Assembly (NCBI RefSeq): GCF_002382885.1
Contig: NZ_NWVL01000006.1
Span: forward strand, 1 to 64,000
DNA from: Streptomyces sp. WZ.A104
GTDB lineage: Bacteria; Actinomycetota; Actinomycetes; Streptomycetales; Streptomycetaceae
Direction: 5' to 3'
DNA: 64,000 bases
Shown here one piece after another: positions 12,145 to 64,000 of the stretch (position 1 is its first letter; each line of letters begins with the position of its first letter). Made by a program: the position numbers and the translations under genes. The notes beneath the pieces were generated by a model that was given only the letters and a program-made list of their open reading frames with translations, searched no databases and was not told the origin of the DNA.

Positions 12145-12194
12145 GGCCGTGTTCTCGTATAGCTACGGCCACCCGACAAGTAGCGCTGCGTAAC
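12145..12194 (+). repeat. left terminal inverted repeat (IRL) of the Tn3 element
   Basis: These 50 bp match the reverse complement of 31745-31794 at 48 positions; the differences are at positions 30 and 45 of the repeat. The repeat contains its own inner inverted repeat, GGCCGT at the tip and ACGGCC 14 bases further in. A 50-bp repeat is longer than the usual 38 bp. Confidence 0.93.
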
Positions 12195-12284
12195 CATCTG
12201 GCTTCGGTTTGGATTCCTTACCTCCACTCCCTCTGGTCGGTCGCCACGATGTGGTGATCCAACTGACTGGGCGAAGGAGTAAGG

Positions 12285-17849: not shown

Positions 17850-17924
17850 CTGCTTCCTCCACAACGGCGCTTGCGAAATGTGTGAAATGCGTGGCCCGGG
17901 CGGCAGGGGCTCCTCCGCTCGGGG

Positions 17925-19712
17925 TTACCGTGCCGGCGCCAGGAACTGGGTGGCGGCCAGGTGTGCGTACAGGCTGTCCTGGTCGAGGAGTTCTGTATGG
18001 GTGCCCGCCGCGCGTACGCGTCCTGCGTCCATCACCACGATCCGGTCGGCGTGGGTCACCGTTGAAAGGCGGTGTGCCACGACGAGGACGGTGGTCGATT
18101 GGGCGGCGTGCGTGATGACGTCGCGTACCGCGAGTTCGTTGACGGCGTCGAGCTGCGAGGTCGCCTCGTCCAGGAGCAGCAGCCGGGGTTTGCGCAGCAG
18201 GGCGCGGGCGATGGCGATGCGTTGTCGTTCACCGCCGGACAGTTTGGTGCCGCGGTGTCCGACGGGGGTGTCCAGGCCCTGCGGCAGGCGGTTGACCAGC
18301 GTGTCCAGCTTCGCTCGGACCAGGACGTCGTGGATGTCCTGGTCGGTGGTGTCGGGGGCCGCGAAGACCAGGTTCTCCCGCAGCGTCCCGGCCAGGACCG
18401 GAGCGTCCTGCTCCACGTATCCGATGGCGCCCCGCAGCTCGGGCAGAGACCAGTCCCGGACGTCCTTGCCGTCGATCAGGACCCGGCCTCCGGTTGTCTC
18501 GTAGAACCGCTCGATCAGGGCGAAGACCGTCGACTTGCCCGCTCCCGAGGGGCCGACGAAGGCCGTCATCCCGGCGCCCGGAATCTCGAAGTCGACCTGG
18601 TGGTGGACGGGTGGAAGGTCATCGCGGTAGCGGAAGCTCACGTCCTCGAAGCGGACCGACGCGGGGCCGTCGGCCGCCGCCGATGTCCCGGGACGCTCGG
18701 GGTGCTCCTGGGCCAGGGGCTCCATTTCAAGCCGCTCCACTGCGTCGATGCGGGTGATGGCCGCTGATCCCTCCTGATACGCGGAGGCCGACTGGACCAG
18801 TCTCTCCACCGGCTCGATGACGTAGAAGAGGTAGAGCAGGAAAGCGATCAGGGTGGATACGGGGATCTCTCCGGAGGCCACGCGTGCCCCGCCGACCCCG
18901 AGCACCGCGAGGAACGACAGCTGCATGGCCAGACCGACTGACCCCTCCGCCACCGCCTCCCACTTCGCACTTGTCACGCCGTGCCGCCACGACCGCTGCA
19001 GGGCCGCGTCGGCGACCGCGTTCTCGCGCTGTTCGGCACCTGACGCCTTGACCGTCCGTAGCGCGCCGAAGATCCGCTCGAGGACGGAGGAGACCTCTCC
19101 GACCGCCTCCTGCGCCCGTTCGGTGGCCTGCGCGATCCTGGGCATCACCAGGGCGACGGCTCCGCCGATCAGCACGCCCACACCCAGGGTGACGCCGAGT
19201 AGGACGGCGTCCATGAGGGCCATCATGACGATGGCCGCGACCAGGGTTATGGCGCCGGTGGCTCCGTTGACGAGCGCCTGGGTGGTGACGGCGCGCAGGA
19301 GCGTCGTGTCGGAGGTGACCCGGGACATGAGGTCGCCCGGCTGGTGCCGCTCGACCTCCGTGAGGCGCAGCCGCAGCAGCCGCCCGACCAGGGTGCGGCG
19401 GGCCGCCAGCACGACGGACTCCGCGGTCCGCTCCAGCACGTACGCGCCGAGCGCCTGGACCACAGCGCCCAGTAGTACGAGTGCGGTGAGGGCGAGGAGG
19501 ATCCTGCCGATCGTCTCACCGGAGCCCAGCCGGTCCACGAGGACCTTCGTGGCCAAGGGCTGGAGCAGTCCGCTTCCGGCCCCGATCAGGGTGAGCAGGG
19601 CGGCGAGCGCGACGGCCTTGCGGTGCGGTCGGAAATGGGCGTACAGCGCCTGGAACGTCTTCGGGGCGGTCAGGCGTGCGGTGTCGGCGGCCGACAGGTC
19701 GGTCGCGGTCAT
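17925..19712 (-). CDS. ABC transporter, fused permease and ATPase
   Basis: The 595-residue protein has an N-terminal six-helix ABC transmembrane domain (to about residue 330) and a C-terminal nucleotide-binding domain. Walker A is GPSGAGKST (about residue 387), the signature is LSGGERQRIAIARALL (about 490) and Walker B is LLLLDEAT, followed by an H-loop in VVAHRLSTV. This half-transporter layout is typical of homodimeric exporters of lipids, peptides or drugs (MsbA/LmrA type). The ATG follows AAGGGA. It sits among TerD and membrane-protein genes, all on the minus strand, so it may export a small molecule or peptide. The substrate cannot be told. Confidence 0.9.
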   Translation of the reverse strand: MTATDLSAADTARLTAPKTFQALYAHFRPHRKAVALAALLTLIGAGSGLLQPLATKVLVDRLGSGETIGRILLALTALVLLGAVVQALGAYVLERTAESVVLAARRTLVGRLLRLRLTEVERHQPGDLMSRVTSDTTLLRAVTTQALVNGATGAITLVAAIVMMALMDAVLLGVTLGVGVLIGGAVALVMPRIAQATERAQEAVGEVSSVLERIFGALRTVKASGAEQRENAVADAALQRSWRHGVTSAKWEAVAEGSVGLAMQLSFLAVLGVGGARVASGEIPVSTLIAFLLYLFYVIEPVERLVQSASAYQEGSAAITRIDAVERLEMEPLAQEHPERPGTSAAADGPASVRFEDVSFRYRDDLPPVHHQVDFEIPGAGMTAFVGPSGAGKSTVFALIERFYETTGGRVLIDGKDVRDWSLPELRGAIGYVEQDAPVLAGTLRENLVFAAPDTTDQDIHDVLVRAKLDTLVNRLPQGLDTPVGHRGTKLSGGERQRIAIARALLRKPRLLLLDEATSQLDAVNELAVRDVITHAAQSTTVLVVAHRLSTVTHADRIVVMDAGRVRAAGTHTELLDQDSLYAHLAATQFLAPAR

Positions 19713-19821
19713 GGTGGGTCCCTTTTGGTCGTCCGGTCGTCCGGGGCTTCCGGTCGTCCGGTCACTGCGGTCGCGGATCTGAGCACCGGGTCGTGCCGGT
19801 GTGTCATCGGGGGTCGGGTGT

Positions 19822-20091
19822 TCAGCCGGGCAGCCCGGTGAGGATCCCCCCGGCGTGGTGGACCAGGCCGGCGTACAGATCGGGCCGGAGGACCGCCAGG
19901 ATCCCGGCCGCAGCGAGGAAGACGAGGAGGCCGGCTTCCCGGCCGCCCCTGAGGTGTCCGTGCGACAGGCACCTGCCCGTCGCGCACCTCTTGCAGGGCG
20001 GCGCGGAAGGGGCGGCCGGGGCCTGTGCGCGGCCGTCGCGGTCCACTCGCTTGTCGTCCATGCGTCCAGGCTCGTCGAGGGGCCGACTCAT
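19822..20091 (-). CDS. small membrane protein with CxxC...C motif
   Basis: The product is 89 residues (or 79 from the ATG at 20061). A polar N-terminus contains PPCKRCATGRCLSHGH, with three Cys that could bind a metal. One hydrophobic segment follows (AGLLVFLAAAGILAVLRP), and the short tail is hydrophobic too (AGLVHHAGGIL). It lies between the ABC exporter gene (110 bp downstream) and the acyltransferase-like gene. Small single-span proteins in such settings are often accessory subunits, but there is no direct evidence here. Confidence 0.5.
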   Translation of the reverse strand: MSRPLDEPGRMDDKRVDRDGRAQAPAAPSAPPCKRCATGRCLSHGHLRGGREAGLLVFLAAAGILAVLRPDLYAGLVHHAGGILTGLPG

Positions 20092-41216: not shown

Positions 41217-41401
41217 GGCTGCCCGCTCGGTGTCGGTCGGGCAGCTGCCGAAGTCCTCTGCTCCTGGGGCTCGTTGGGTTCGTACACGTATCGGACCTGG
41301 CATATTCGCTTTGGCTGGTTCCGTGTGGCTACTGTGTCGCGGCAAAGCCCATGTGGTCCCGTAGAGGGGCCCGACCCGCGATCGGCGTTAGCCGCCCGAG
41401 G

Positions 41402-42550
41402 ATGAGCACGGAGCCCGCGATTGGCCATGCGAGCACCCTGGTGACGCAGGAGATGGACAGCGGCGGCCCCACCCCTGTTGGCCGTCGCCTCACCGACTGG
41501 CGAATACGCCGAGGCCTCGGCGTTGCCGGTTTGGCGACGCGCGCTGGCGTCCCGGGGCAACTGATTGAGGACCTGGAGGCGGGGGAGGAGTGGGTCGACC
41601 AAGGCCGCGTGCTGAGCTCGCTTGCCGCCGGTCTCCGGCTGGATCCGGCCGAGCTGACGGGCCAGCCCTACATGCCGTGCGGGCCCGGCCACTCCACCGT
41701 GCACTCGGTCGGGTGGTTCGCACGTCGGCATCTGGCGCGCATGCTCTCCGCGGACGGCGTCGGGGGAGAGGCTGACGAGATTCGACTGGCCGAGCTCGTC
41801 GACGGAGTGAGGGCGGCGGCCGACGACGGTGAGCTCGCTTCCGCCGCCCAGATGGTTCCGGGGCTGCTGGAAGTGATCGGCCCGCCGCGTCCTGGAAACA
41901 CCGACCGCGGGGTCGCCGCACTTCGCGCGGTCGCGCACGTGGCCGTGAGTCGGCTCCTGCGCCGCCTCGGGTACCGAGATCTCGCCTGGAGCCTGCTGTC
42001 CTACGCGTGCCCCCCGCCGGAGGCCCGCCCTGCGGTGCTCGGGGAAGAGGTGTGGCTGCTGCTCGACATGGGCCAGGCCGAACTCGCGGTCGCCCGGACT
42101 GTGCGGGGGGAGGCCGATGTCCCAGACGAGGTTCTACTGCCGCTGGCCGTCGCGCACGCGGCGCTCGGGCAGGAGGCGGAGAGTGAGCGCCTGCTCGCAT
42201 CTGCTCAGGAGAAGGCCATCAGCGCGCGGCAGCGAGCCCAGGTCGCGTCCGCCTGGGCCTTTGCGGCAGCGGAGGGCGCTGCCTACGACGACGTGCTCAC
42301 CCGGGCGGAGGGGGCGACCTGCCTTCCGGCCGGCGACCGCTCCACCCTTCTTGTGCTCACCGCGTCCGCCCGAGCCAGGCTCGGCCAGTACGGGGCGGCG
42401 GTCGAGGATCTGGCGGCAGCGGAATCCCTCGCGCCGTTGCACACCCGGCTGGACCCGCTGGCTCGCGAGCTTGTGAGCGTGCTCCCCGCCCGCGCCCAGG
42501 AACATGCCGAGGTGCTGGGCGGGATCGCGGCGCGGCTCGGCATGAAGTGA
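41402..42550 (+). CDS. XRE-family regulator with helical C-terminal domain
   Basis: The 382-residue protein has an N-terminal helix-turn-helix (TPVGRRLTDWRIRRGLGVAG, then LATRAGVPGQLIEDLEAGEE) followed by a ~290-residue Ala/Leu/Arg-rich helical region resembling TPR-like repeats (EVWLLLDMGQAELAVARTVR; ERLLASAQEKAISARQRAQV). This layout is common for Streptomyces regulators of accessory and antibiotic genes. The start at 41402 is tentative; an ATG at 41453 is the alternative. It is the first of two such regulators ahead of the biosynthetic operon. Confidence 0.8.
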   Translation: MSTEPAIGHASTLVTQEMDSGGPTPVGRRLTDWRIRRGLGVAGLATRAGVPGQLIEDLEAGEEWVDQGRVLSSLAAGLRLDPAELTGQPYMPCGPGHSTVHSVGWFARRHLARMLSADGVGGEADEIRLAELVDGVRAAADDGELASAAQMVPGLLEVIGPPRPGNTDRGVAALRAVAHVAVSRLLRRLGYRDLAWSLLSYACPPPEARPAVLGEEVWLLLDMGQAELAVARTVRGEADVPDEVLLPLAVAHAALGQEAESERLLASAQEKAISARQRAQVASAWAFAAAEGAAYDDVLTRAEGATCLPAGDRSTLLVLTASARARLGQYGAAVEDLAAAESLAPLHTRLDPLARELVSVLPARAQEHAEVLGGIAARLGMK

Positions 42551-42636
42551 TCTTGGCCTGTTCGGGGAATGCCGGGTTGCGGCGGCCACACCTGGCCTAA
42601 CCTACGCATGATCCCAGGGGAGTTGGGCAGGCGATC

Positions 42637-43884
42637 ATGGACGAACGGCAGCAGGAGCTGGCCAAGCAGATCGGCAAGAGAGTGCGGACGCTCCGCGGCA
42701 AGAGGGGCTTGACTCTCCGTGAGCTGGCCGGCCTCGCGGGTGTCTCGAACAGCTACCTGTCGATGATCGAGGGAGGGAAGCGCCTCCTGAAGGACTCCTC
42801 CTACATCAGCGCGCTCGCCGACGCGCTGAAGGTCGCGCCGGCGGAGCTACTCGGGCAGCCCTTCCTTCCTACGGACCCGCACGCCACGGAGGCCGATGCC
42901 GCGATCCCGGCACTGCGGCTGACGTTGATGGGCATGACTCTGGGGAGCCCGCCGGACCGTCGCCCACCGGCGGAGCCCGTCACGCGGCTGGCGGCGCGGG
43001 TGCGGCGGGCGAACCGTCTGTACCACTCGGCGGAGTACGGCGCACTGGCGGTGCGGCTTCCGGAACTGTTGGCGGACCTCCAGGCGGCGGCCGCGGCAAG
43101 CGAGGGCCGTACGCGGCTGAGGGTGCTGCGGCTGCTGGCGGACGCCTACCACCCGGCGTGCACCCTGATGCTCAAGTCGCTCGGTTACACGGATCTGGCC
43201 TTCATCGCGGTCACCCGGGCCAGCGAAGCCATTGCCGAGCTCGAGGACCCAGTCTACACCGCTCTGAGCGGCTTCTTCGCGACGCACATCCTCATGGCAG
43301 CCGGGAGCCCCCAGCAGGCGCTGTCCAAGGCGACAGCCACGGTGAACCTGCTGGAACGCCACCTCGATCTCCCCAATGCCGAGGCGCTGCTCGGCGAGCT
43401 CCACCTGATCTCGGCCACGACCATCACCAAGGACCCGAACCGACCCGCTGGTGACCGCACGGCCGACGTCCGCTCCCACCTGACCGAGGCGACGCGCCTA
43501 GCGGCCGGGATCGGTGAGACGCGCGCGTTCCATCTCAACTTCGGACCCACGAACGTCCAGATCCACCGGGTCAGCCTCAACACGGATCTCGGACACCACG
43601 GCGACGCGGTCACGGCGGGGACCGGCGTGCATCCCGAGATCATCAACGCGCCCGGCCGGCAGGCGGCCTACCACTCCGATCTAGGACGGGCGCTCGTTCA
43701 CGTCCGCGGGCAGGAGTCGGCCGCCGCCGAGCGATTCCTCCGGGCGGAGCTGATCGCCCCCCAACGGGTCCACGCCGACGCACTGATCGGAGACTCCGTC
43801 AGCTACCTCCTCGGCAAGCGGCTTCCCTCCCATGTTCAGCGCGACCTTGCCGGTCTGGCGCACCGGATGGGCATCAGCCGGTAG
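42637..43884 (+). CDS. XRE-family regulator with TPR-like C-terminal domain
   Basis: This 415-residue protein has a canonical XRE helix-turn-helix at residues ~11-65 (IGKRVRTLRGKRGLTLRELA, then GLAGVSNSYLSMIEGGKRLL). A long helical C-terminal domain follows (RLAARVRRANRLYHSAEYGA; EAIAELEDPVYTALSGFFAT), probably TPR-like and probably ligand- or peptide-binding. It ends 258 bp before the radical-SAM-like gene. The ATG follows GGGGAG at a longer than ideal distance. The pair of regulators in front of one operon suggests a control cascade. Confidence 0.88.
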   Translation: MDERQQELAKQIGKRVRTLRGKRGLTLRELAGLAGVSNSYLSMIEGGKRLLKDSSYISALADALKVAPAELLGQPFLPTDPHATEADAAIPALRLTLMGMTLGSPPDRRPPAEPVTRLAARVRRANRLYHSAEYGALAVRLPELLADLQAAAAASEGRTRLRVLRLLADAYHPACTLMLKSLGYTDLAFIAVTRASEAIAELEDPVYTALSGFFATHILMAAGSPQQALSKATATVNLLERHLDLPNAEALLGELHLISATTITKDPNRPAGDRTADVRSHLTEATRLAAGIGETRAFHLNFGPTNVQIHRVSLNTDLGHHGDAVTAGTGVHPEIINAPGRQAAYHSDLGRALVHVRGQESAAAERFLRAELIAPQRVHADALIGDSVSYLLGKRLPSHVQRDLAGLAHRMGISR

Positions 43885-43939
43885 CCCTCCTGTAGTTCGC
43901 AGTGACAGCGGCCGCGTACCTCTTTCACCACCCGAGCCG

Positions 43940-43953
43940 AAAACGTCCGTTTT
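43940..43953. promoter_or_regulatory. AAAACG-N2-CGTTTT palindrome, copy 2
   Basis: The site reads AAAACGTCCGTTTT and lies about 190 bp upstream of the radical-SAM-like gene, with the flank GGTTAC on its right. Read on the opposite strand it matches copy 1 beyond the palindrome itself. Confidence 0.7.
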
Positions 43954-44141
43954 TGGTTACCTGCTGGCGGCGGGTGGTTGCAGGTATCTGCATGTTCACG
44001 GCTGTGAGCAAACAGGGGGGTGTCTCCGCCTACGGTCTGGCTCCGGCTTCGCGGGGAGGTCTTCGCCCGAAGCCGCGACGCACGACTCCGACGGGTGCCG
44101 GCTTTCCGGTGCCCGGCTCCGTAGGCGAGAGAGGGAAGCCG

Positions 44142-45206
44142 ATGCTCGAATCCGTCCGCCACCTGGAAGAGGTGGCCCGCGAGTGGAAGATCAACCCCGA
44201 GGACGTGCTGCTCATCGCGCTGAACAGCTGCGGGGCGCGTTCGCCGCTGGACAAGCCGCGGATGCGGTTCCAGCTCTCGCTGGACTCGCGGCCGGCCGAC
44301 CCGTCGTACCTGATCCTCTCGCTGGGCCGCGAGGACTCGCCGTTCGAGATCGACGAGCACGAGCTGCGGCTGCACGGCGAGCGGGTCGGCGCGGTCGCCG
44401 GCATCGAGGACGACGACGCCGTGCTGGGGTACTGGCGCAACGGCACGAAGATGCTCACCCTCAACTCGAACCAGCGTTCCCAGTGCGTGGGGTGCACGTT
44501 CTGCCCGAACACCCTGGAGGGGGCCTCGGACCCGGCGATCCGCGAGCTCGACCTGCCGGGCTACTTCGCCGCCCTCGCGGCGAACTCCGGCGTGCCGGAC
44601 CTGTCGGGGGTCGAGACCGTGACGGTGTGCACCGGCTGCTTCCTGTACGAGCACCTGGCCCTGGAGCACCTGGAGGGCGTGCGCGCCGCGATGCGCAGCA
44701 CCGGCTGCGAGGGGACGCTGCACTTCCTGTCGTCGGTGCTCACCAGCGAGGCGGGCCTGGACCGGGCCGCCGAGCTCGGGCCCTTCCACCTGACCCTGAC
44801 GGTGGAGTGCTTCACCAACCGGGCGGACATCCTCAAGCAGTCCAAGGCCGCGCTGACGGTTGACCAGATGGTCGCCACGCTCGGAGCGGCGAAGGAGCGG
44901 GGCATCACCACGGACTTCACCTACATCGTGGGCCTGGACCCGATCGAGGAGGCCGTGGAGAACTTGAAGCGGCTGGTGCCGGTGACGACGACGTTCCCGC
45001 GGTTCCAGACGTTCCAGGCGCACAACCCGTACATGGACGTCTACCGCACGCCGGGGTCGGACACGATCGAGTGGAACCTGACGATGCGCCGCGCGGTCGA
45101 GGAGCTGTTCGCGGAGACGGGGCTGCGGCCGCAGTGGTGGCAGAACTACCGCTCGCCGTGGGCGTACACGTTCGCCGGGGAGCAGCTGACCGGGGCGCGG
45201 ATCTGA
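44142..45206 (+). CDS. radical-SAM-like enzyme with non-canonical CX2CX2C motif
   Basis: The 354-residue protein has an N-terminal ~110-residue region and then SQCVGCTFCPNTLEG, where C115, C118 and C121 are spaced CX2CX2C, not the canonical CX3CX2C of radical SAM enzymes. The rest has the repeated beta/alpha pattern expected of the radical SAM barrel (VETVTVCTGCFLYEHLALEH; GPFHLTLTVECFTNRADILK; TTDFTYIVGLDPIEEAVENL). The ATG follows GAGGGAAG. It opens the seven-gene operon, its stop overlapping the next start (TGATG). It probably performs a radical transformation of the pathway intermediate. The reaction is unknown. Confidence 0.75.
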   Translation: MLESVRHLEEVAREWKINPEDVLLIALNSCGARSPLDKPRMRFQLSLDSRPADPSYLILSLGREDSPFEIDEHELRLHGERVGAVAGIEDDDAVLGYWRNGTKMLTLNSNQRSQCVGCTFCPNTLEGASDPAIRELDLPGYFAALAANSGVPDLSGVETVTVCTGCFLYEHLALEHLEGVRAAMRSTGCEGTLHFLSSVLTSEAGLDRAAELGPFHLTLTVECFTNRADILKQSKAALTVDQMVATLGAAKERGITTDFTYIVGLDPIEEAVENLKRLVPVTTTFPRFQTFQAHNPYMDVYRTPGSDTIEWNLTMRRAVEELFAETGLRPQWWQNYRSPWAYTFAGEQLTGARI

Positions 45207-46369
45207 TGGCCGGGCGGGACGGCGGGGCCGTGACTGTGGTGCGGGCGGTGCGGATCTGGCCGGTGGCCGGGCAGCCGGCCGGTCTGCCGGAGGGGTTACC
45301 GGACGCGGTGGCCGCGGTGGCGGTCGCGCCGGCGGGGCCGTCGTGGGCGGAGCACCGGACGCGGTTCGCGATCGAGGTGGTCGGTGACGGGGTCTCGGGC
45401 TGGCACGCGCCGGTCGGGGAGGGTGTGGCGCGGCTCGTCGTGGACGCCCTCGCCGACGGGCTGGTCGGGCACGATGCGGCGGCGCCGCGCAAGCTCGGCT
45501 ACCGGCCGCGGACCGGGCGGCACCAGCAGGGGGCGCACGCCCGGCAGGCCGTCTCGGCGGTCGAGCTGGCGTGCTGGGATCTGGCGTCGCGGGCCTCGGG
45601 TCGGTCAGTGCCAGAGCTGCTGGGCGGCACGGTGCGGGAGCGGGTGCCGGCGTACGCGTCCGCGCTCGGCCTGGACCCGGCACGTCCGGAGGCGGTGAAG
45701 GCGGCGGCGTGGATCACCGAGCAGGGGTTCTGGGGGCAGAAGTGGCCGCTCACCAAGGAGCTGCTGCGCCAGGGGCCGCGGACCGTTGCCCGGGTGCTGG
45801 GGGCGCTGCGGGAGGCGGCGGGCGAGGGCCGGTTCATGGTCGACGGGTTGCGCCGGTGCCGGCTGGACGAGGCGCTCGCCCTGCTGCCCGTGCTGGCCGA
45901 CCTGGAGGTCGCGTTCGCCGAGGAGCTGCTGGAACCGGGCGGCTTCGCCTGGGGCCGGGTGCGGGCGGCCGGGGCCGGGGTGCCGATGGCGGCCGGGGAG
46001 CACGCGGTCGACGAGCACGAGCAGATGCGGCTGCTGACCGGCGGGTCGGTGGACGTGTGGCAGACCGACCCGGGCTGGTCGGGCGGGCTGGCCCGCTCCC
46101 TGCACACCACCGAGGTCGCCGCGGACCTGGGCATGGCGACGTTCCCGCACGGCGACCGGCTGTGGGCAGCGCTCGCGCTGGCCGGCGCGTGCTGCCGGGA
46201 CAAGGTCCCGGCGGTGGAGTGGCACCTGACGCTGGAGCCGCTGCGGCAGCAGGTGTTCGCCGAACCCGCCGAGGTGGAGGCGGGGATGCTGCCGTCCGGG
46301 CCCGGCGCCGGGCTCGCCCCGCTGCCGGTCACCTCCTCGCCGCTCCCGGCGTGGGAGATCGGGTCATGA
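45206..46369 (+). CDS. enolase-superfamily enzyme (mandelate racemase/muconate-lactonizing type)
   Basis: The 387-residue protein has the N-terminal capping domain and C-terminal barrel of the MR/MLE group. Metal ligands appear at D213 (FMVDGLRR), E239 (FAEELLEP) and E265 (AAGEHAVDE), spaced 26 residues apart. A Lys at about 179 lies in GFWGQKWPL, and a D...H pair follows (VWQTDPGWSGG; ATFPHGDRL). This pattern is seen in sugar-acid dehydratases such as rhamnonate or galactonate dehydratase. It would abstract a proton alpha to a carboxylate. ATG overlaps the upstream stop. The substrate is unknown; a sugar acid is the best guess. Confidence 0.85.
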   Translation: MAGRDGGAVTVVRAVRIWPVAGQPAGLPEGLPDAVAAVAVAPAGPSWAEHRTRFAIEVVGDGVSGWHAPVGEGVARLVVDALADGLVGHDAAAPRKLGYRPRTGRHQQGAHARQAVSAVELACWDLASRASGRSVPELLGGTVRERVPAYASALGLDPARPEAVKAAAWITEQGFWGQKWPLTKELLRQGPRTVARVLGALREAAGEGRFMVDGLRRCRLDEALALLPVLADLEVAFAEELLEPGGFAWGRVRAAGAGVPMAAGEHAVDEHEQMRLLTGGSVDVWQTDPGWSGGLARSLHTTEVAADLGMATFPHGDRLWAALALAGACCRDKVPAVEWHLTLEPLRQQVFAEPAEVEAGMLPSGPGAGLAPLPVTSSPLPAWEIGS

Positions 46370-47073
46370 GCGGCCGGACGTGGTCCGGGGTGCGGGCGGT
46401 CTGCTTCGACATGGGCGGCACGCTGGTGCGCCCGGAGCCGGTGGCGACGACCGGCCAGGTCGCCGAGGTCCTCGGCATCTCCTTGGAGGAGGCCCGCGCC
46501 TTCATGGGCAGGGGCGCCAAGCGGCGTCTGGTCTCCCCGCAGGGCCTCGCCCAGGAGATCGCGGCCGACTTCGGGCGGCCCGCGGTCACCGGCGTGCTCA
46601 CCGAGGTGCTGGAGCGGGCCCGGCGCCGGGCCGAGGACCCGCAGTTGTACCCGGACGTGCCGGACACCCTGGCCGCGCTGCGCGCGCGGGGCTTCGCCCT
46701 GTACGCGATGACCAACGCGCTCGGCTCCTCGGTGCCCGAGCAGGAGCCCACCGTGTTCCGTGAGCTGCTGGACAGCGTCTTCTACTCGGCGCGCACCGGC
46801 GCGATCAAGCCGGAGCCGGAGGCCTTCGCGGCCGTCGAGCGGGCCAGCGGGCTGCGGCCGCAGGAACTGCTGCACGTCGGCGACTCGGTGAACGCCGACG
46901 TACGCGGGGCCGCGACGGCCGGTTGGCACACGGCCTGGGTGGACCGGCACCACACGACCGGCCCCCTGATGCCGGCCGCGTCCACGCTGCGCCTGCACTC
47001 CCTCAACACCCTCCTCCTGCTGCTGCCCGCCCGGGCGGCGGCGGAGGCGATCACATCGGAGGTGGCCGGCTGA
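46366..47073 (+). CDS. HAD-superfamily hydrolase-like protein
   Basis: The 235-residue protein has the HAD core: motif I AVCFDMGGTLVRPEP (D15), motif II in LYAMTNALGSS, the Lys in GAIKPEPEAF (motif III) and motif IV LLHVGDSVNADVRGA. Motif I reads D-M-G-G-T, so the second Asp usual in phosphatases (DxDGT) is replaced by Gly at residue 17. Helical cap residues lie between motifs I and II. It may therefore be a dehalogenase-like or altered phosphatase. The start ATG overlaps the previous stop (ATGA), fixing co-translation in the operon. A sugar phosphate is a plausible substrate. Confidence 0.85.
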   Translation: MSGRTWSGVRAVCFDMGGTLVRPEPVATTGQVAEVLGISLEEARAFMGRGAKRRLVSPQGLAQEIAADFGRPAVTGVLTEVLERARRRAEDPQLYPDVPDTLAALRARGFALYAMTNALGSSVPEQEPTVFRELLDSVFYSARTGAIKPEPEAFAAVERASGLRPQELLHVGDSVNADVRGAATAGWHTAWVDRHHTTGPLMPAASTLRLHSLNTLLLLLPARAAAEAITSEVAG

Positions 47074-48236
47074 TGGAGCCGTCCCGTACGTCCCGCCCGG
47101 CAACGCCCCCTGTTCCCGATCCGCTGATCGCATCCGTGCCGCTGTTCGACCCCAGTCGGCTGCCGCTGCGCACGTGGTGCGAGGGCAGCCGGGAGGACGC
47201 AGTCACCGGTCTGGTCGCTTTCCCGGACTTCCACAGCCACATCCCGCGCTGCCTGGCCGCCGCCCTGGAGGCGGGGCGGCTGGTGGCGCTGGCGATCGGG
47301 GACGTCGACGGGCTGAAGGACCACGTGGAGCGCACGAACTCCACCGACCCGACCTCCTACGGGCACCTGGCCGGCAACGAGGTCATGGCGACCGTGGGGG
47401 CCACGACCCGCGCGTGGTTCCGCGAGCAGCCCTTCGACTCCGGCTGCGCGGCGACGTTCGGCGGCGACGAGGTGATCCTCGCCGCGGTCGTGGACGACGC
47501 CGGCCAGTTCCACCAGGCCCTCGGGGTCCTGCGGGACCGGCTCGGCGCCGCGCTGCCGGTGACGGTCTCCTTCGGCCTGATGTTCGTCACCGCCGGGGAC
47601 CTGCCCAGCGAACGGGAGAGGGGGTGGAAGCACGACTTCACCAACACCCTGCTCGCGACGGTGGACCGGACGCTGTTCACGCACAAGGCTGCGCGGCGTG
47701 CCGGGGGCGGCCCCGGCGGCATCATCGCCGTCACCCGCCCTCCCCAGCTCACCGAACCCGTTCCGGCCGGCCCGGACCCGATGGTCCTGCTGCCGCTGCC
47801 GGCCGCTGCCGACATCGCGCATGTGGTGGCGCGGCCGGAGCGGATCGGCGGCCGGGACTTCCTGCTGCTGCCCTGCCGCGGACCGGTCGGCCAGCGCGGC
47901 GCCCAGCTGCGCGTCACCTTCCCCACCGGCAGCTCCAAGACCGTCGTGGCCTACGCGCTGCGGGGGCAGGCCGCGGTGCCGTACGCGGCCGTCACGGACG
48001 GCGTGACCGGTGTGCCGCTGACGGTGCAGGGCGTGCGGGACCGCACCCCGCGCAGCGTGCCCGAGGACCTGGCCGCCGCCCTGGAGCGGGCCGGGCTGGA
48101 CTGGGCGGCGGTGCCCGCCCACGAGCAGGCGCAGATCCTCCACCTGGTCACCGAGGCCGGCACCGAGGAGATCCGGGCCGGGCGGATCACTGCCGCCGTG
48201 GACGCGGTCGCCGCGCGGAAAGGAACGGCACGGTGA
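47073..48236 (+). CDS. GGDEF-like nucleotidyl cyclase-fold protein in biosynthetic operon
   Basis: The 387-residue protein shows a GGDEF-type domain in residues ~55-205: AIGDVDGLKDHVERTNS (metal site region), YGHLAGNEVMATVGATTRAW and FGGDEVILAAVVDD (GGDEV at about 130-134). The sequence then continues through VTVSFGLMFVTAGDLPSERE. The C-terminal ~170 residues are a separate domain with RDFLLLPCRGPVGQRGAQLR, unknown to me. Such domains normally make cyclic di-GMP or related nucleotides, or bind them. Finding it inside a metabolic operon, overlapped by both neighbours (TGATG and GTGA), is unusual. It could regulate or act in the pathway; activity is not shown. Confidence 0.7.
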   Translation: MEPSRTSRPATPPVPDPLIASVPLFDPSRLPLRTWCEGSREDAVTGLVAFPDFHSHIPRCLAAALEAGRLVALAIGDVDGLKDHVERTNSTDPTSYGHLAGNEVMATVGATTRAWFREQPFDSGCAATFGGDEVILAAVVDDAGQFHQALGVLRDRLGAALPVTVSFGLMFVTAGDLPSERERGWKHDFTNTLLATVDRTLFTHKAARRAGGGPGGIIAVTRPPQLTEPVPAGPDPMVLLPLPAAADIAHVVARPERIGGRDFLLLPCRGPVGQRGAQLRVTFPTGSSKTVVAYALRGQAAVPYAAVTDGVTGVPLTVQGVRDRTPRSVPEDLAAALERAGLDWAAVPAHEQAQILHLVTEAGTEEIRAGRITAAVDAVAARKGTAR

Positions 48237-50392
48237 GCGAGACCGTCATGGCTCCCGGGCCCGCCGCGACCGCGGGCCCGGGGGACTTCCCCGACTGGAG
48301 CCAGGCCGCCGCGCACGCCGCGGCGCGCGTGCCGGACGCGGCCGTCACGGCCGCGTGGCGGGCGATGAACTACCTGTGCGCCGCGCAGCTGTACCTGACC
48401 GACAACGTGCTGCCCACCCGGCCGCTGCGGGTGGAGGACGTGAAGAAGGCGCCGAGCGGACACTGGGGAGTGTGCCCGCCGGTGAACTTCATGCTCGCGC
48501 ACCTGGGGCCGCTCACCGCATGGCGGCCCCCGGGCAGCGAGGTCCTCGTCGTCCACGGCGCCGGACACGCCGGCCCGTCGGCACTCGCCCACGCCTACCT
48601 GACCAAGACCCTCACGCTGACCGGCAACGGACCGGGCTGGTCGGCGGCCAGCATGCGCACGCTGGCCGCGGGCTTCCCGCACACCCGCGCCTACGGCGGG
48701 GAGATCACCCCGCTGATCCCCGGCGTGCGCTACACCGGCGGCCAGCTCGGGCCGGCGCTCGCCGTCGCGCAGGGCATGGTCCTGGACGCCCCGCACCGCC
48801 TGGTGGTCGCACTGCTCGGCGACGGGGAGCTGGAGACCGGCGCCGCCGCGGCGGCGTGGACGGCCCGGCGGGCGCTGCTCGGCTCGGGGCTGCACGGCGC
48901 GGTGCTGCCCGTCGTGCTGGCCAACGGCCTTCGGATGGGCGGCCCCTCCGTCCTGGCCGGGCTCGACGAGGCCGAGCTGCGCGCGTACTTCACCGGCCTG
49001 GGGTACGAACCGTTCCTCCACGACGGCTCCGACACGGCCGGCTTCCGTACGGTCCTGGCCGAGGTGTTCGCCCGGCTGCGACCGCTCGGAGTCGCCCGTC
49101 CCCAGCCGGTGCTCGTCCTGACCATGCCCAAGGGCGCGACCGGGCCCGAGGAGGTCGCCGGCCGCCGGATCGCCGGAACCCCGGCCGTCCACAAGACCCC
49201 GCTGAAGGACCCCGCCCACAACCGGGAGGAGTTCGACGCCCTCACCGCGTGGCTGACCTCGTACGCGCCCGCCACGCTGTTCACCGACCAGGGGAAGCCG
49301 TCCGACCTCGTACGGCAGGCACTGCCGCACTCGCCGCCCCGGCCCCGCCCGGCCCCGCCGGTGGCCCCGCTCGCCGTCCGCGGCGCGGAAGCGTGGCCGC
49401 TGCTCAGCGCGGTGATCCGCGAGCGCGCCGCCGCCGGCGCCTTCCGGCTGTTCAGCCCGGACGAGGCCGCCTCCAACCGGCTCCGCCTGGCCGACGGCCC
49501 GGACGGCGGGATGCCGGCGTGGGCGAGCGAGATCCTCAACGAGGAGATCTGCCACGCCTGGCTGCAGGGCTACACCGAGACCGGCCGCGACGCGCTGCTG
49601 GCCACGTACGAGGCGTTCGCCGCGGTCAACACCAGCCTGCTCGTCCAGCACCTCAAGCACCGCAGCGCGCGGACCGCGACCGGTGCGGGCGGGCTGGCGA
49701 ACATCAACTACCTGATCACCTCGCTGGGCTGGCGCAACACCTACACCCACCAGAACCCCGGGCTCGTCTCCGCGATGCTGGAGACCGAGAACCCCACCGT
49801 GCACGTCTACACCCCGGCCGACGCCACCCGCGCGGCCGCCGTCCTCTCGGTCATGCTCACCGGGCGGGACCGGGCGAACTTCCTGATCGCCGACAAGCAC
49901 CACACGCTCACCTTCCCCCCGGACACCTTCCGCGAGGAGCTGACCTGCGGCGCCGCGATCTGGCCCCACCTCAGTACCCCCGGCCCCGGAAGCCCGGACA
50001 TCGTCCTGGCCTCCGCCGGGGACGTCGCGGCGCGCGAGCTGTCCGCCGCGGCCGGCCGGCTCGCCGCTGCCCGCCCGGACGCCCGCATCCGCTACGTGCA
50101 CGTCAACGACCTCACCGCCCTCGGCCACCCGAACACCTGGCCCGCCGCCCTGCCCGCCGCCACCTTCGCCCGCCTGTTCCCGACCGGAGTCCCGGTGCTA
50201 TTGGCCACCGTCACGCAGGCCCCGGCCGTACGAGCCCTGCTCGCCGGCCGCGGCGAAGCCGCCCGCGTCCGCGTCGTCGGCTACCGCGACCCCGGCCGTC
50301 CCCTTCCCTCCGCCGATCTGCTGGAGCACTGCGGCATGTCCGCCGCCGCGCTCACCGCCCAGGCGCTCACGATGCTCAAGGAGCCGCGATGA
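48233..50392 (+). CDS. phosphoketolase-family ThDP enzyme
   Basis: The 719-residue protein follows the phosphoketolase (XFP) layout. Motifs are GHWGVCPPVNFMLAHL (canonical GHWG, H77), VHGAGHAGPSALAHAYL, the ThDP-binding LGDGELETG, FRLFSPDEAASNRL, EICHAWLQGYTETGRDALLA and WRNTYTHQNPGL. Phosphoketolases are usually ~790-830 residues and split xylulose-5-phosphate or fructose-6-phosphate into acetyl phosphate and an aldose phosphate. This one is shorter and divergent (CPPVN for TTPGLN; HQNPGL for HQDPGF), so the substrate may differ. A GTG overlaps the preceding stop. In the operon it could shorten a carbon chain or supply acetyl phosphate. Confidence 0.88.
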   Translation: MSETVMAPGPAATAGPGDFPDWSQAAAHAAARVPDAAVTAAWRAMNYLCAAQLYLTDNVLPTRPLRVEDVKKAPSGHWGVCPPVNFMLAHLGPLTAWRPPGSEVLVVHGAGHAGPSALAHAYLTKTLTLTGNGPGWSAASMRTLAAGFPHTRAYGGEITPLIPGVRYTGGQLGPALAVAQGMVLDAPHRLVVALLGDGELETGAAAAAWTARRALLGSGLHGAVLPVVLANGLRMGGPSVLAGLDEAELRAYFTGLGYEPFLHDGSDTAGFRTVLAEVFARLRPLGVARPQPVLVLTMPKGATGPEEVAGRRIAGTPAVHKTPLKDPAHNREEFDALTAWLTSYAPATLFTDQGKPSDLVRQALPHSPPRPRPAPPVAPLAVRGAEAWPLLSAVIRERAAAGAFRLFSPDEAASNRLRLADGPDGGMPAWASEILNEEICHAWLQGYTETGRDALLATYEAFAAVNTSLLVQHLKHRSARTATGAGGLANINYLITSLGWRNTYTHQNPGLVSAMLETENPTVHVYTPADATRAAAVLSVMLTGRDRANFLIADKHHTLTFPPDTFREELTCGAAIWPHLSTPGPGSPDIVLASAGDVAARELSAAAGRLAAARPDARIRYVHVNDLTALGHPNTWPAALPAATFARLFPTGVPVLLATVTQAPAVRALLAGRGEAARVRVVGYRDPGRPLPSADLLEHCGMSAAALTAQALTMLKEPR

Positions 50393-51237
50393 CCACCCCG
50401 CTCGCACCCGCCCCGGAGCAGCTGGCCGCCTTCGACCGCGACGGGCTCCTCATCCTGCGCGGCGCCCTCGCCCCCGAGGTACGCGACCGCGCGGCCGAGG
50501 CCGCCGTACGGCTCCTGGCCACCGACCGGACCGAGGGCCGAGACCGCTCCGTCGACGGCAAGGACGGCTTCCGCGGCGTCGTCGCCCTCGACGACGCCTT
50601 CCTCCCGCTCCTCGCCAACCCGGCCGTGCTGCCCACGCTCGTCGGCCTGCTCAGCCCCAACATCCACCTGACGTCAAGCAACCTGATCTCCATGCCGTCC
50701 CTGCCGGACGAGCAGCGCACCATCCGCGTGCCGTCCCGGCACGGATGGCACCGCGACATGTCCTCCACCGTCGCCGACCTCGGCGTCGAGCACACACCCC
50801 GCCTGGCGATCAAGGTGGCGTACTTCCTCACCGACCCGGGCCCGGATGCCGGGCTCACGATGTTCGTGCCCGGCAGCCACACCCGCACCGGGCCCGTCAC
50901 CGTCCCGCAGGGGGACACCGACCCGCCCGGTGCGATCACCCCGGACATCGGCCCCCACGACGTGGTGCTCTTCGAGAACCGCACCTGGCACGCTGGCGGC
51001 CTCAACCGCTCCGGCCACGACCGGCTGGCAGTGATGATGCAGTACGGCTACCGGTGGCTCAACGCCGTCGACGACCCCGCCCCCGGCCTCCTCGACCGGC
51101 CGAACCTGGACGACGTCGAGCGGCAGCTCCTCGGCGTCCGCGACCGCCACCCCGACGGCTCCGTCGCCCGCGAGGGCTCCGGCGCCCGCCCACTCACCGC
51201 GTGGTGGGAGCACCTGAACGCGGTTCCGGCTCGTTGA
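50389..51237 (+). CDS. phytanoyl-CoA dioxygenase (PhyH) family Fe(II)/2-oxoglutarate enzyme
   Basis: The 282-residue protein has the PhyH double-stranded beta-helix. The iron triad is H121 and D123 (RHGWHRDMSS) with distal H201 (TWHAGGLNRSGHDR), where the Arg after it probably binds 2-oxoglutarate. The N-terminus (LAAFDRDGLLILRGALAPEV) matches the family start. Such enzymes hydroxylate or otherwise oxidise natural products. The ATG overlaps the stop of the phosphoketolase gene (ATGA). In this operon it is a candidate tailoring enzyme. Confidence 0.88.
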   Translation: MTTPLAPAPEQLAAFDRDGLLILRGALAPEVRDRAAEAAVRLLATDRTEGRDRSVDGKDGFRGVVALDDAFLPLLANPAVLPTLVGLLSPNIHLTSSNLISMPSLPDEQRTIRVPSRHGWHRDMSSTVADLGVEHTPRLAIKVAYFLTDPGPDAGLTMFVPGSHTRTGPVTVPQGDTDPPGAITPDIGPHDVVLFENRTWHAGGLNRSGHDRLAVMMQYGYRWLNAVDDPAPGLLDRPNLDDVERQLLGVRDRHPDGSVAREGSGARPLTAWWEHLNAVPAR

Positions 51238-51281
51238 CCGAACGCCCGACCCTGACCGCACCCCCGCGAGAGACTGGACCC

Positions 51282-52094
51282 GTGACCTCCTCCACCCCCT
51301 CGTACACGCCCGACGAACTGTTCGCGTCCACCGCGCCGTACTACGCCGCCTTCCGGCCCCGCTACGCGCCCGAGTTCTACACCCTGCTCGCCGACCGCTT
51401 CGGCCTCGACGGCACCCAGCGCGTCCTCGACCTCGGCGCCGGCCCCGGCATCATCGCCCTCGACCTCGCACCGCTCGTCGGCGAGGTCATCGCCGTCGAC
51501 CCCGAGAAGGGCATGCTCGAAGAGGGCCGCCGCCTCGCCGCCGAGCAGGGCGTCACCAACATCGACTGGCGCGAGGGGGACTCCACCACCCTCCCGGCGA
51601 TGGGCCTCGGGCCCGTCCTGCTGACCGTCATGGGCGCGGCCTACCACTGGATGGACCGCGACAAGGTCGCCCGGGACCTCGACCGGATCATCGAGCCGGG
51701 CGGAGCGATCGTCCTCGCCTCCGGCGGCGCCCCCGGTGACCTCGAGCCCGCCGACTGGCGCCACGTCGTGGACGAGGTCCGCACCCGCTACCTCGGCCCC
51801 GAGCGCCGCGCCGGCTCCGGCACCTACTCCCACCCCAAGGAACGCCACCAGGACGTCCTCGCGCGCTCCCCGTTCTCCCAGGTCGATACCGCGCGCTGGG
51901 ACCACACCCTGACCCGCACCGTGGACGAGGTCATCGGCTGGGTCTTCAGTCTCTCCTACTCCAGCCCCGCCCAGCTCGGCGAGCAGAAGGACGCCTTCGA
52001 GCAGGACCTGCGCGCAGTGCTCCTCGCCTTCAACCCCTCCGGGCGGTTCGACGAGGTGATCCGCACCGAGGCGATCATCGCCACCAGGCCGTAG
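51282..52094 (+). CDS. SAM-dependent methyltransferase
   Basis: The 270-residue protein has the class I methyltransferase motif I (VLDLGAGPGIIALDLAPLVG), acidic loop VIAVDPEKGMLEEGRRLA and motif-like REGDSTTLPAMGLGPVLLTV. Helices follow, and the C-terminal part contains WVFSLSYSSPAQLGEQK. Start is a GTG at 51282, 44 bases after the PhyH stop, with a weak GAGA ribosome site. It is the last gene of the operon and would methylate O, N or C of the product. Confidence 0.88.
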   Translation: MTSSTPSYTPDELFASTAPYYAAFRPRYAPEFYTLLADRFGLDGTQRVLDLGAGPGIIALDLAPLVGEVIAVDPEKGMLEEGRRLAAEQGVTNIDWREGDSTTLPAMGLGPVLLTVMGAAYHWMDRDKVARDLDRIIEPGGAIVLASGGAPGDLEPADWRHVVDEVRTRYLGPERRAGSGTYSHPKERHQDVLARSPFSQVDTARWDHTLTRTVDEVIGWVFSLSYSSPAQLGEQKDAFEQDLRAVLLAFNPSGRFDEVIRTEAIIATRP

Positions 52095-52165
52095 CCTGGC
52101 CGGCGCCGGCTCGGGCAGCCCGCGTGACAGTGTCCAGGATCGGCAACGTGGCGGGGCTGGGCCAC

Positions 52166-53583: not shown

Positions 53584-54735
53584 TCAGGCGGCGGCCTCGC
53601 GCAGGTCGGCGAGGAAGCGGCGGAGCTGGGTGGCCTCTGCCGAGTCGGGAGCGACTCCGCCGTTGCGAGCGGCGAACTGCCTGGCGAGCTGGTCTGCGCT
53701 CCAGCCGCGTTCCCCGGCCTCGCTGACGATCTCGAACCAGATCACCTCCGGGTCGTCGTCCTCGACGATCTCGGCGTCGATCGGCTCCTCTTCGGCGGCG
53801 TTCGCCGCGTTCATGTTCTTCCCTCCGGTCTTCGTGGAGTTCGCCGCCTTGGCCTCGGCGGTGCGCTTCGCCGTGCCGATGGCGACCAGCTCCGCCTTGA
53901 GTTCGTCGGTCATGTCACCAGCGGCTTCCGCTTCCCGGTAGATCTTCAGCGCTGCGTCCGCCGTTGCGGCCCTTCGGGCCTCGGCCGCGTAGTCGCGGGT
54001 GCTCCCTTCGAGCGCGAGGTGGGCGGGCGGGACGGGGCTGAGTTCGGCGCCGGGGATGGTGCCGGTGAGTGCCTGCCGTGCAGTGGCCCTGACCTCCACG
54101 ACGACGACGGGGAACTTCTTGGTCTTGCCCTCGGCGAGGCGCTGACGCTGCTCGATTCGCATGCCGACGGGGATGACGCCGCGACCACCGGTGCCGGAGA
54201 GCACCATGTCGACGACGCCCGGCCACTCGTTGGCGGCGTAGAACCCGTGCGTCTCCGCTCTCCAGACGCCGATCCCCGGCAGGTCGGGAAGGTAGACCTT
54301 GATCCTGCTGGTCGCCCGGCACACTTGCTGGGGGCCGAGCAGGTACCAGTTCTCTCCATGCCGGTCGAGGCAGATGCAGGGCTTCTTGGACAGTTTCTCG
54401 GTGATGCCGTCGCAGCGGCGCGCGCAGCCGCCGCCCGTCCACATCTCGTTGTACTGGGACAGCGGGTCGCCGGGTGGGAAGAGGGCTTCGATGGTGGTCG
54501 CCTCGGTGATGACCCTCCACTGGTCGGGATGGTTGCCCTGCGGGCTCCAGCGTTCGACCTTGCCGCCCCACATCTCGGCGGCGGCATCGACTCGTGAGCG
54601 GTCGTGGCTGGAGACGATCCATGTCTCGGACTTGACGGGTCGGTTCCGGCCCTTGTCGGTGGGCACGCTCCAGCCGGTGCGAAGGCGTCCGAGTTCGGCG
54701 GCCTGCCGTTGGAGGTTCAGAAGTCGTCCGGCCAT
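53584..54735 (-). CDS. RDF-like / 'hydrolase or metal-binding' mobile-element protein
   Basis: The 383-residue protein begins AGRLLNLQRQAAELGRLRTG, has WIVSSHDRSRVDAAAEMWGG and a Cys-rich segment MWTGGGCARRCDG followed by KKPCICLDRHGENWYL. This pattern is that of proteins in actinophages and plasmids annotated as recombination directionality factors or metal-binding proteins. C-terminal helices follow (EARRAATADAALKIYREAEA; ERGWSADQLARQFAARNGG). The start overlaps the stop of the nuclease gene (TGATG). It may control integrase direction or act in DNA metabolism with the nuclease. The assignment rests on remembered similarity. Confidence 0.6.
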   Translation of the reverse strand: MAGRLLNLQRQAAELGRLRTGWSVPTDKGRNRPVKSETWIVSSHDRSRVDAAAEMWGGKVERWSPQGNHPDQWRVITEATTIEALFPPGDPLSQYNEMWTGGGCARRCDGITEKLSKKPCICLDRHGENWYLLGPQQVCRATSRIKVYLPDLPGIGVWRAETHGFYAANEWPGVVDMVLSGTGGRGVIPVGMRIEQRQRLAEGKTKKFPVVVVEVRATARQALTGTIPGAELSPVPPAHLALEGSTRDYAAEARRAATADAALKIYREAEAAGDMTDELKAELVAIGTAKRTAEAKAANSTKTGGKNMNAANAAEEEPIDAEIVEDDDPEVIWFEIVSEAGERGWSADQLARQFAARNGGVAPDSAEATQLRRFLADLREAAA

Positions 54736-62412: not shown

Positions 62413-64000
62413 TCACGCTGCCAGGGAGAGGCTGACCTCGGCTTCGTGGTCCGAGGGGTCCTCCAGCGGGGAGGCCTCGTTCTGACCGGCCTCGTCCTGG
62501 CAGCCCTCGGCCTCGTCGGCGGCGATGCCACGCTCGGTGTCGGGGGCCGGCTGGGTGTCGGAATCGGCCGGGTGGGCGTGCTCCGGCTTGTCCTCCTGGG
62601 GATCGGTCTCGATCTCGTCGTCTTCCTCGTCCTCTTCGTACTCGTCGTACTCGTCCTCCGTCGCCGGGGCAGGGTTGTCCCGCTCCTCTCGGCGCTGGCG
62701 CAGTTCCGCGATCAGCTCCTCCTCCGGGTTGGTGAGCGTGTAGCCGTAGCGAGCGAGCAGTTCCAGCCACTCGATGGCGAAGTCGAGGTCGAGGCCCCAG
62801 CGGCCGTACTCGACCCTGCGCATGTTCGCCTCGGCGTAGACGGCGAGCTGGGCGAACAGGACGAGGGGGAGCTTGTGCTCGGGGGTCCGCTCGACGCGGC
62901 GGCGCATGGCCTCCTCCAGGGGCACGTCCTTCGCGGGGCTGGCCCCCAACAGGGTGAACACATCGTGGAGGCGGGCGGTCTCGACGCTGCTGGTCAGGCC
63001 GTGGCCGAAGAGGTGCGTGACGACCGCCTTGTAGAGGCCCTTCGGGGTCTTGTTTGCGCGCGCCATCTCCGTGACGTGCTCGCGGCGCACCTGGGCGGCG
63101 GTGGCGAGGGCTTCCTTCCGCTCGGCCTCCCTGGCTTCGGCGGCTTCCTTCTCCGCGCGCTCCTCGTCGCTGAGGTGCTTGTAGTAGCCGAGGATCTGGT
63201 GGCCGTACTTCTTCGGCTCCCGGCAGACGTAGGTGATGTAGCCGGTCTCATCGAGGTAGGCGGCGTGGCCGGGGCACTTCGCGTGGGTCTCTTCCGTGTA
63301 GGTGTCGCCCGCCGCGTCCCGCATGTCGCGCAGGTTGAGCGGCACCGAGCCCCAGCTCGGCTTGGGAATGACGGTGACTCCGGCGAGCAGCAGCTCGGCC
63401 TTCGCCTTGGCCTTGGCCTCGCGGTTCTTCTTCCGGCGACGCTCGGTCTCCAGGGCGTACTTGAGGTGGCCGCCGTCCTTGATGACCTTGAGGAGCCGGT
63501 TGTACACCTTGGGCTCGTTCTCGAACTCCGCGATCTGCATGGACTGCTCCAAGTCGAGCTGTCCCGCGTCCGCCGCGTCCCGGGCTTCCTTCGGCATCTG
63601 GTGGAGCCGGAGAGAGGCGGCGACCTTCTGCTTGTCCTGGGAGACCTGGCGTGCGATCTCCTCCACATCCAGCCCTTCGAGGGCGAGCTGGTCGTACGCG
63701 GCGGCGATGTCACTGGGCCGCATCTCCGTACGGTGGATGTTCTCGGTGAGCTGGTCGATGATCTTGGCGGCGGTGGTGCTGATGTCGTTACGCACGATGG
63801 CGGGGATGAGCGCGCGCTCCGCCTCGATCGCGGCGGCGTGCCGGTGGAATCCGAAGACGAGGGAGTAGCCGGAGAACTCGTCGCCGACCACGGTGACGGG
63901 CTCCAGAACGCCACGCTCACGGATCGAACCGACGAAGTCGGGGTCCAGATCCACGGGCCGGATGTTGCGCCCGGCCTGAATGGCCTTGGGATCGAGCCAG
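62413..64000 (-). CDS. ParB-like nuclease-domain protein (5' end outside window)
   Basis: The visible 529 residues begin in WLDPKAIQAGRNIRPVDLD. Then come FVGSIRERGVLEPVTVVGDE and the arginine-rich YSLVFGFHRHAAAIEAERAL, i.e. the ParB/Srx-type fold with the G-x-R/H-R-x-x-A box. The HTH region follows (PSDIAAAYDQLALEGLDVEE; IARQVSQDKQKVAASLRLHQ). A middle Cys motif (KCPGHAAYLDETGYITYVC) and a long acidic C-terminus (EDEYDEYEEDEEDDEIETD) are added. ParB proteins bind CTP and parS sites to partition replicons; the same fold is frequent in DNA-modification modules. Which role applies here is open. The start codon lies beyond position 64000. Confidence 0.85.
   Translation of the reverse strand, partial: WLDPKAIQAGRNIRPVDLDPDFVGSIRERGVLEPVTVVGDEFSGYSLVFGFHRHAAAIEAERALIPAIVRNDISTTAAKIIDQLTENIHRTEMRPSDIAAAYDQLALEGLDVEEIARQVSQDKQKVAASLRLHQMPKEARDAADAGQLDLEQSMQIAEFENEPKVYNRLLKVIKDGGHLKYALETERRRKKNREAKAKAKAELLLAGVTVIPKPSWGSVPLNLRDMRDAAGDTYTEETHAKCPGHAAYLDETGYITYVCREPKKYGHQILGYYKHLSDEERAEKEAAEAREAERKEALATAAQVRREHVTEMARANKTPKGLYKAVVTHLFGHGLTSSVETARLHDVFTLLGASPAKDVPLEEAMRRRVERTPEHKLPLVLFAQLAVYAEANMRRVEYGRWGLDLDFAIEWLELLARYGYTLTNPEEELIAELRQRREERDNPAPATEDEYDEYEEDEEDDEIETDPQEDKPEHAHPADSDTQPAPDTERGIAADEAEGCQDEAGQNEASPLEDPSDHEAEVSLSLAA

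Follow-up and report, generated by a model that had tools for sequence, protein, structure and literature searches.

In canonical phosphoketolases, His97 is the proton donor for dehydration with His142 and Gly155 as helpers, His142 speeding the step, and the phosphate site consists of His64, Tyr501 and Asn549 (PMC6435721); the substitutions H142N and Q321A alter substrate use (PMC10547157). In GGDEF domains, one position reads the base, being Asp in the canonical form or Ser in the Hypr GGDEF protein GacA (Ser348) (PMC6456294). Divergent relatives of both enzymes are encoded side by side in a seven-gene operon at positions 44142-52094 of a 64,000-nucleotide stretch from Streptomyces sp. WZ.A104 (contig NZ_NWVL01000006.1, positions 1 to 64,000), hereafter the window. 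We consider it reasonably probable that this operon is a horizontally moving specialised-metabolism pathway, one that would cleave a phosphorylated keto substrate to an acyl phosphate and turn this into a small methylated product, with the substrate, order of steps and product as we infer them.

The enzymes belong to known superfamilies, and it is their combination, together with several active-site changes, that is new within the literature searched. An earlier reading of the window from its letters alone (the sequence-only reading) could match the operon to no known cluster, and no description of such a cluster, of biosynthesis around a phosphoketolase of shifted specificity or of a GGDEF domain placed among metabolic genes was found by titles and abstract openings, in a search with most subscription journals outside its coverage.

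Organization of the operon

The seven genes of the operon are as follows.

44142..45206, + strand: gene 1, radical-SAM (S-adenosylmethionine) fold enzyme with an N-terminal domain; invariant CxGCxxCPN
45206..46369, + strand: gene 2, MR-subgroup enolase-superfamily protein, dehydratase-like; MR_MLE_C 1.1e-27
46366..47073, + strand: gene 3, HAD hydrolase with a D-x-G-G-T motif; Pfam Hydrolase 4.5e-21
47073..48236, + strand: gene 4, GGDEF domain (residues 38-221) fused to an OmdA-like C-terminal domain
48233..50392, + strand: gene 5, divergent phosphoketolase dependent on thiamine diphosphate (ThDP); XFP_N 2.9e-63
50389..51237, + strand: gene 6, PhyH-type Fe/2-oxoglutarate oxygenase; PhyH 3.3e-14; HxD...H present
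51282..52094, + strand: gene 7, class I SAM-dependent methyltransferase; Methyltransf_25 3.3e-14; motif I retained

All seven open reading frames (ORFs) are intact, with successive overlaps of 1, 4, 1, 4 and 4 bp and a spacing of 44 bp between genes 6 and 7, exactly the layout given in the sequence-only reading (overlaps of 1-4 bases, the final gene 44 bp off). The enzymes it listed (phosphoketolase, enolase-type, radical-SAM-like, PhyH, HAD and methyltransferase) agree with the domain calls and the predicted fold. The Pfam scan covered 20 window proteins from the operon and its neighbours, with window positions 1-33 kb outside it, and MR_MLE, HAD, XFP, PhyH and methyltransferase scores of operon proteins were above cut-off; in a second scanned set, seven of ten proteins fell in no Pfam family. 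Among the 20 proteins there is no polyketide, peptide or terpene synthase, as had been stated from the letters, and assignment as a RiPP (ribosomally synthesized and post-translationally modified peptide) or polyketide cluster was rejected, no such gene being present in this set.

Of the seven frames, a strict codon-position filter retained just those of genes 1, 2 and 4. All seven genes are recovered by a gene caller; this recovery is not independent, because the caller was trained partly on the same genes. The gene models are, however, independently backed by plasmid NZ_CP108678.1, whose public annotation gives the same set of seven, six of them of identical length (gene 7 differs).

Distribution and phylogeny of the operon family

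Related loci came from five sources: GTDB contigs yielded 11, the 246 genomes sampled in the window's genus gave 18 gene 1 matches (14 at E<1e-60), 394 genomes of its class five matches (two already among the genus matches), 101 genomes searched with gene 4 four matches (two already known) and plasmids eight of 72,556 records. In total 37 stretches were compared, 34 with at least 85% of gene 1 plus three relics, after exclusion of the duplicates L034 (same record as L030), L035 (as L022) and L027 (as L056). Weak gene 1 matches in genomes G070 and G026 and a third Nocardia farcinica plasmid (H45) were left out of this comparison.

Streptomyces, Actinomadura, Nocardia and Mycobacterium all have members carrying the set, which is partly plasmid-borne. 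A genome-neighbourhood comparison with the phosphoketolase and radical-SAM-like pair, as proposed in the sequence-only reading, found the two together in 28 of 34 loci. In the other six, there is an internal deletion (L020), an interrupted gene (L037), a missing gene beside a short dehydratase (L038), an incomplete locus with gene 1 alone (L046) or a contig end (L040 and L056). In a reciprocal search of 242 genus genomes, 11 had a phosphoketolase of the family (at least 402 bits), the next best scoring 335.7 bits; the lower-scoring proteins were taken as canonical from this gap, not by motifs. Gene 1 is also present in ten of the 11, and the eleventh, G075, holds only a decayed remnant (L065). 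The hypergeometric probability of this sharing is ~7e-14, if both draws are from the same genomes and with kinship among genomes ignored.

The window's form, type A, comprises 16 loci, in 12 of which all seven genes were detected (one gene being truncated in each of L022 and L023); contig ends truncate two of the remaining four loci, and the other two are damaged. The full type A sets extend to Actinomadura and to a second genus within the window's family. As gene order and co-occurrence are conserved across loci, the seven genes appear to form a single transcription unit and very likely one pathway, as the sequence-only reading had proposed.

Five further types were distinguished. In type N, from two N. 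farcinica plasmids, the GGDEF and OmdA-like domains are separate genes, and there are two additional radical-SAM genes. Type M, from a Mycobacterium intracellulare plasmid (L068), has a separate GGDEF protein, a HAD protein fused to the OmdA-like domain and an adjoining MFS transporter on the opposite strand (17265-18728), a possible exporter. Of the 14 loci in types B, C and D, none yielded a GGDEF domain, and 13 have a second PhyH along with a YrdC-like protein; the exception, L040, ends early. GGDEF is found in 16 loci, the YrdC-like protein in 13, both in none and neither in five. A creatininase-family protein is found in eight of nine type C loci and the single type D locus. The OmdA-like domain changes partners, joining GGDEF in A and HAD in M and standing alone in N, B and C, and this shuffling supports a functional link.

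ArfA and ArfB are a GTP cyclohydrolase III and a creatininase-type deformylase. A start from GTP in the manner of this pair was rejected, because creatininase and GGDEF occupy different types, creatininase being confined to C and D, in which GGDEF was not found. A link to the PyrF and nucleoside hydrolase of N. farcinica was also rejected, these being present only in the two Nocardia plasmids read.

In the gene 1 tree, types A, N and M group together (97/93), as do B and C (100/99), with D as a single long branch forming the outgroup. There is a long-branch warning for M and D, so that neither the root nor the position of M is secure. The branching of Actinomadura sp. CNU-125 (L026) within Streptomyces agrees with horizontal transfer. 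No gene 1 match was found in 50,697 phage records, and a phage origin was rejected.

The distribution is patchy, partly on plasmids, and the operon is decayed in several genomes, as might be expected of an anti-phage or plasmid-conflict system carried on mobile elements; one methyltransferase-domain match to the PADLOC model mads_2 points the same way. Such a function nevertheless seems highly improbable, given that six of the seven proteins have no PADLOC model match at E 0.001, that the composition is biosynthetic and that there is no nuclease or toxin family among the operon Pfam matches.

Several individual loci have features of their own. The type N plasmid locus L031 has two further radical-SAM genes and a second methyltransferase (17871-19971). 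An aminoglycoside-phosphotransferase-family gene directly follows the type C operon on two Streptomyces plasmids (L033 19125-20117, L069 18168-19154). L024 (Streptomyces sp. WM6378, 9995-17975) is a mosaic, with ~77-78% identity to the window in genes 1-3 and 82-88% in genes 4-7, suggesting recombination inside the operon. L065, L066 and L067 are decayed remnants in three genus genomes, consisting of gene 4/5 pieces or a gene 1 stump. In the YrdC-like family (cluster 11, e.g. L039 5264-5914), VPTxRWYM is present in 11/11 rows and KxRP is kept; VPTxRWYM stands where YrdC proteins usually have the Thr-site motif.

The divergent phosphoketolase

Gene 5 (719 aa) scores above the cut-offs for all three phosphoketolase domains (XFP_N, XFP and XFP_C at 214, 108 and 78 bits). 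It shares these domains with the Bifidobacterium XFPK (3ahc), as well as the ThDP/Mg motif GDGE...NG and the equivalents of H64, H97, H320, H553, S440, R442, Y501, N549 and K605, residues that are kept, along with the metal motif, in 23/23 family phosphoketolases. However, identity to the lower-scoring, canonical proteins is ~33-40%, and three changes are found in 23/23 family members and in 0/4 canonical rows (one being the other phosphoketolase encoded in the window's genome): H142 is Glu, Q321 is Lys, and R545-Q546-D547 is missing. The canonical active-site set of H64, H97, H142, H320, H553 and E479 is therefore broken at H142 throughout the family. The 23 rows exclude L061, L022 (truncated gene) and the Mycobacterium protein; the last, read by eye, has Arg at the Q321 site where the family has Lys. 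Gene 5 is not the sole phosphoketolase copy, as the window's genome carries a separate one (XFP_N 545 bits). A literature search on the phosphoketolase loop was a dead end.

Mapped to the sites described in PMC6435721 and PMC10547157, the kept and changed residues show that the family retains the acyl-phosphate machinery apart from H142, with a changed pocket. Gene 5 is thus likely to act on a different substrate.

The GGDEF-OmdA protein

In the AlphaFold2 (AF2) model of gene 4 (mean predicted local distance difference test score, pLDDT, 77.5), residues 38-221 have a GGDEF fold, which aligns with the diguanylate cyclase SiaD (7e6g) with Z 17.8 and a root-mean-square deviation (rmsd) of 2.2 over 153 residues; the structural matches listed span little beyond this domain. 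The metal Asp, GGDE and the conserved Lys (K205) are kept in 15/15 rows, so that fold, GG[D/E]E and metal Asp are all those of a GGDEF domain, as in SiaD and SadC. It differs from these two in the sequence GHLAGN, also in 15/15 rows, which by alignment places Asn102 at the base-recognition position instead of the Asp of guanine-reading cyclases, in GGDEV, in an ~8-residue insert, in the OmdA-like fusion and in its setting in a metabolic operon. The same position is changed in the Hypr GGDEF protein GacA, but to Ser. Since Asn replaces the Asp or Ser that reads the base, the base choice of this domain is probably altered. Profile scores are low: gene 4 reaches 18 bits against the TIGR00254 cut-off of 37.4, the Nocardia homologue 21.8 against the PF00990 cut-off of 23.8, and the OmdA-like C-terminal domain is a weak match (22.6 bits versus 25.6).

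With the GGDEF fold and catalytic residues intact, the protein could be a true second-messenger cyclase, the operon then being a regulatory system for a nucleotide or nucleotide-linked signal in which the other enzymes make or modify a partner or respond. The helix-turn-helix (HTH) regulators upstream, and the NUDIX and HD proteins that adjoin the type C locus L039, are in keeping with this idea. Yet the metabolic enzymes are constant among types and GGDEF is not, no I-site RxxD is visible by eye in gene 4, and there is no EAL or PilZ among the operon Pfam matches; a signalling role for the whole operon therefore seems decidedly improbable.

The radical-SAM fold enzyme

The Pfam Radical_SAM score of gene 1, 24.4 bits, is below the cut-off of 29.5. 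Its AF2 model (mean pLDDT 86.6) is a radical-SAM TIM barrel, the best structural match being lipoyl synthase (4u0p; Z 15.2, rmsd 3.8, 239 aligned), and the barrel and a cysteine loop after strand 104-108 are shared with the lipoyl synthase, MqnE and viperin folds. Unlike radical-SAM enzymes in general, gene 1 has its own N-terminal part and CxGCxxCPN, of CxxCxxC spacing, in 30/30 family rows. The usual cluster motif is CxxxCxxC; as other spacings exist, radical-SAM membership is made less probable by this but not excluded. A PDB sequence search with gene 1 and a literature search on the CxxCxxC motif were both dead ends.

The dehydratase-like and HAD enzymes

Gene 2 has the metal ligands and His-Asp dyad of MR-subgroup acid-sugar dehydratases, with K179, D213, E239, E265, D288, H315 and E338 invariant in 21 rows, and is similar in sequence to solved members. 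It departs from them in an additional invariant EPxRQ near the C-terminus and in falling below every NCBIfam cut-off, its best matches (galactonate and L-rhamnonate dehydratases) being far below. HAD motif I is D-x-G in 26/26 readable rows of gene 3 (L020 was left out, L055 is unreadable at this motif and type D has no row).

Dehydratases, HAD proteins and phosphoketolases also occur as catabolic enzyme types, and the operon could accordingly support growth by degrading a phosphorylated sugar or an uncommon sugar acid. This is quite unlikely, since a radical-SAM enzyme, methyltransferase, PhyH and GGDEF protein are atypical of catabolism as generally known, and no sugar transporter or kinase family is present among the 20 window proteins scanned (seven of ten neighbour proteins having no Pfam match).

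Proposed pathway

In the favoured biosynthetic pathway, the radical-SAM enzyme and MR-type dehydratase would reshape a phosphorylated, oxygen-rich substrate. The divergent phosphoketolase would bind a phosphorylated keto compound, other than fructose-6-phosphate or xylulose-5-phosphate, through ThDP, cleave it, dehydrate the fragment and release an acyl phosphate. The HAD enzyme would take off phosphate, the GGDEF-OmdA protein would use a nucleoside triphosphate either to nucleotidylate an intermediate or to control the pathway, and hydroxylation by PhyH and methylation would complete a small polar product. Remodelling of a sugar phosphate, suggested in the sequence-only reading, is plausible because the Ser440, Arg442 and Lys605 equivalents are kept and gene 2 has relatives among sugar-acid dehydratases. 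That reading thus stands in part. Its single pathway is upheld as very likely, with no synthase among the 20 proteins scanned, but it missed the changed pocket of the phosphoketolase, the GGDEF-OmdA protein, the related operons and their mobility.

Several observations weigh against this biosynthetic pathway. There is no marker of product class in the operon, the Nocardia and Mycobacterium versions yielded no PhyH and type D no OmdA-like domain, and the 34 loci are not independent events, because near-copies were counted separately. The cysteine loop of gene 1 is of low confidence in the AF2 model. The D-x-G-G-T motif of gene 3 is without the second Asp that is usual in HAD-family phosphatases. 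As the dehydration helper H142 is lost in the gene 5 family, acyl-phosphate formation is not certain, and a transketolase-like transfer instead is possible; the Glu479 equivalent, kept in 22/23 members, is also missing from L043.

A more specific version of the pathway, rather unlikely as it stands, is that the GGDEF domain, its base recognition altered, has taken on a biosynthetic role, in which it would nucleotidylate or cyclise an intermediate made by the substrate-shifted phosphoketolase, and that a YrdC-type adenylate-forming protein replaces it in sister lineages. The family would then be a new class of mobile pathways to nucleotide-activated small metabolites.

Upstream regulators and genomic surroundings

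Two regulator genes and one weak operator candidate lie upstream of gene 1.

41402..42550, + strand: HTH regulator with a long C-terminal part; HTH_31 3e-06; start uncertain (longest ORF from 41351)
42637..43884, + strand: HTH regulator, perhaps pathway-specific; HTH_31/HTH_3
43994..44009, no strand: imperfect dyad GTTCAC-GGCT-GTGAGC, weak candidate operator; kept in the window, L020 and L030

The two adjoining regulators resemble each other, and perhaps control the operon. Relatives of the second are found upstream of type A loci L020, L023, L024, L029, L030 and L037, and L054 has a pair of regulators from the same sequence cluster; none was seen in the stretches examined of L019, L021, L022, L026, L028 and L036, and several type A loci are without the regulators in the stretch examined. 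The dyad is not kept in 12 other aligned upstream regions, and a shared operator was rejected, as upstream conservation is confined to near relatives.

Both regulators and the seven genes (41295-52149) have 91.2% identity to one block of the linear plasmid NZ_CP108678.1 of Streptomyces sp. NBC_01216, and the match ends on either side of the block. Because one bounded block holds both, regulators and enzymes may travel together.

Elsewhere in the window, a Gp3-like recombination directionality factor (53584-54735) and a ParB protein (62413-63954) hint at a mobile or plasmid region. Pieces of 14001-39000 have matches in 116 plasmid records, and annotations at these places include Tn3-family transposase, recombinase and ABC transporter.

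Significance

The marker gene 1 is present in ~6% of the sampled genus genomes (14/246), and the product could therefore be found. As the changes at known phosphoketolase specificity sites are fixed in the family, the enzyme is directly testable. If the proposed pathway is true, it would add a biosynthetic logic in which the central C-C cleavage falls to a substrate-shifted phosphoketolase and a GGDEF domain is placed within a metabolic operon.

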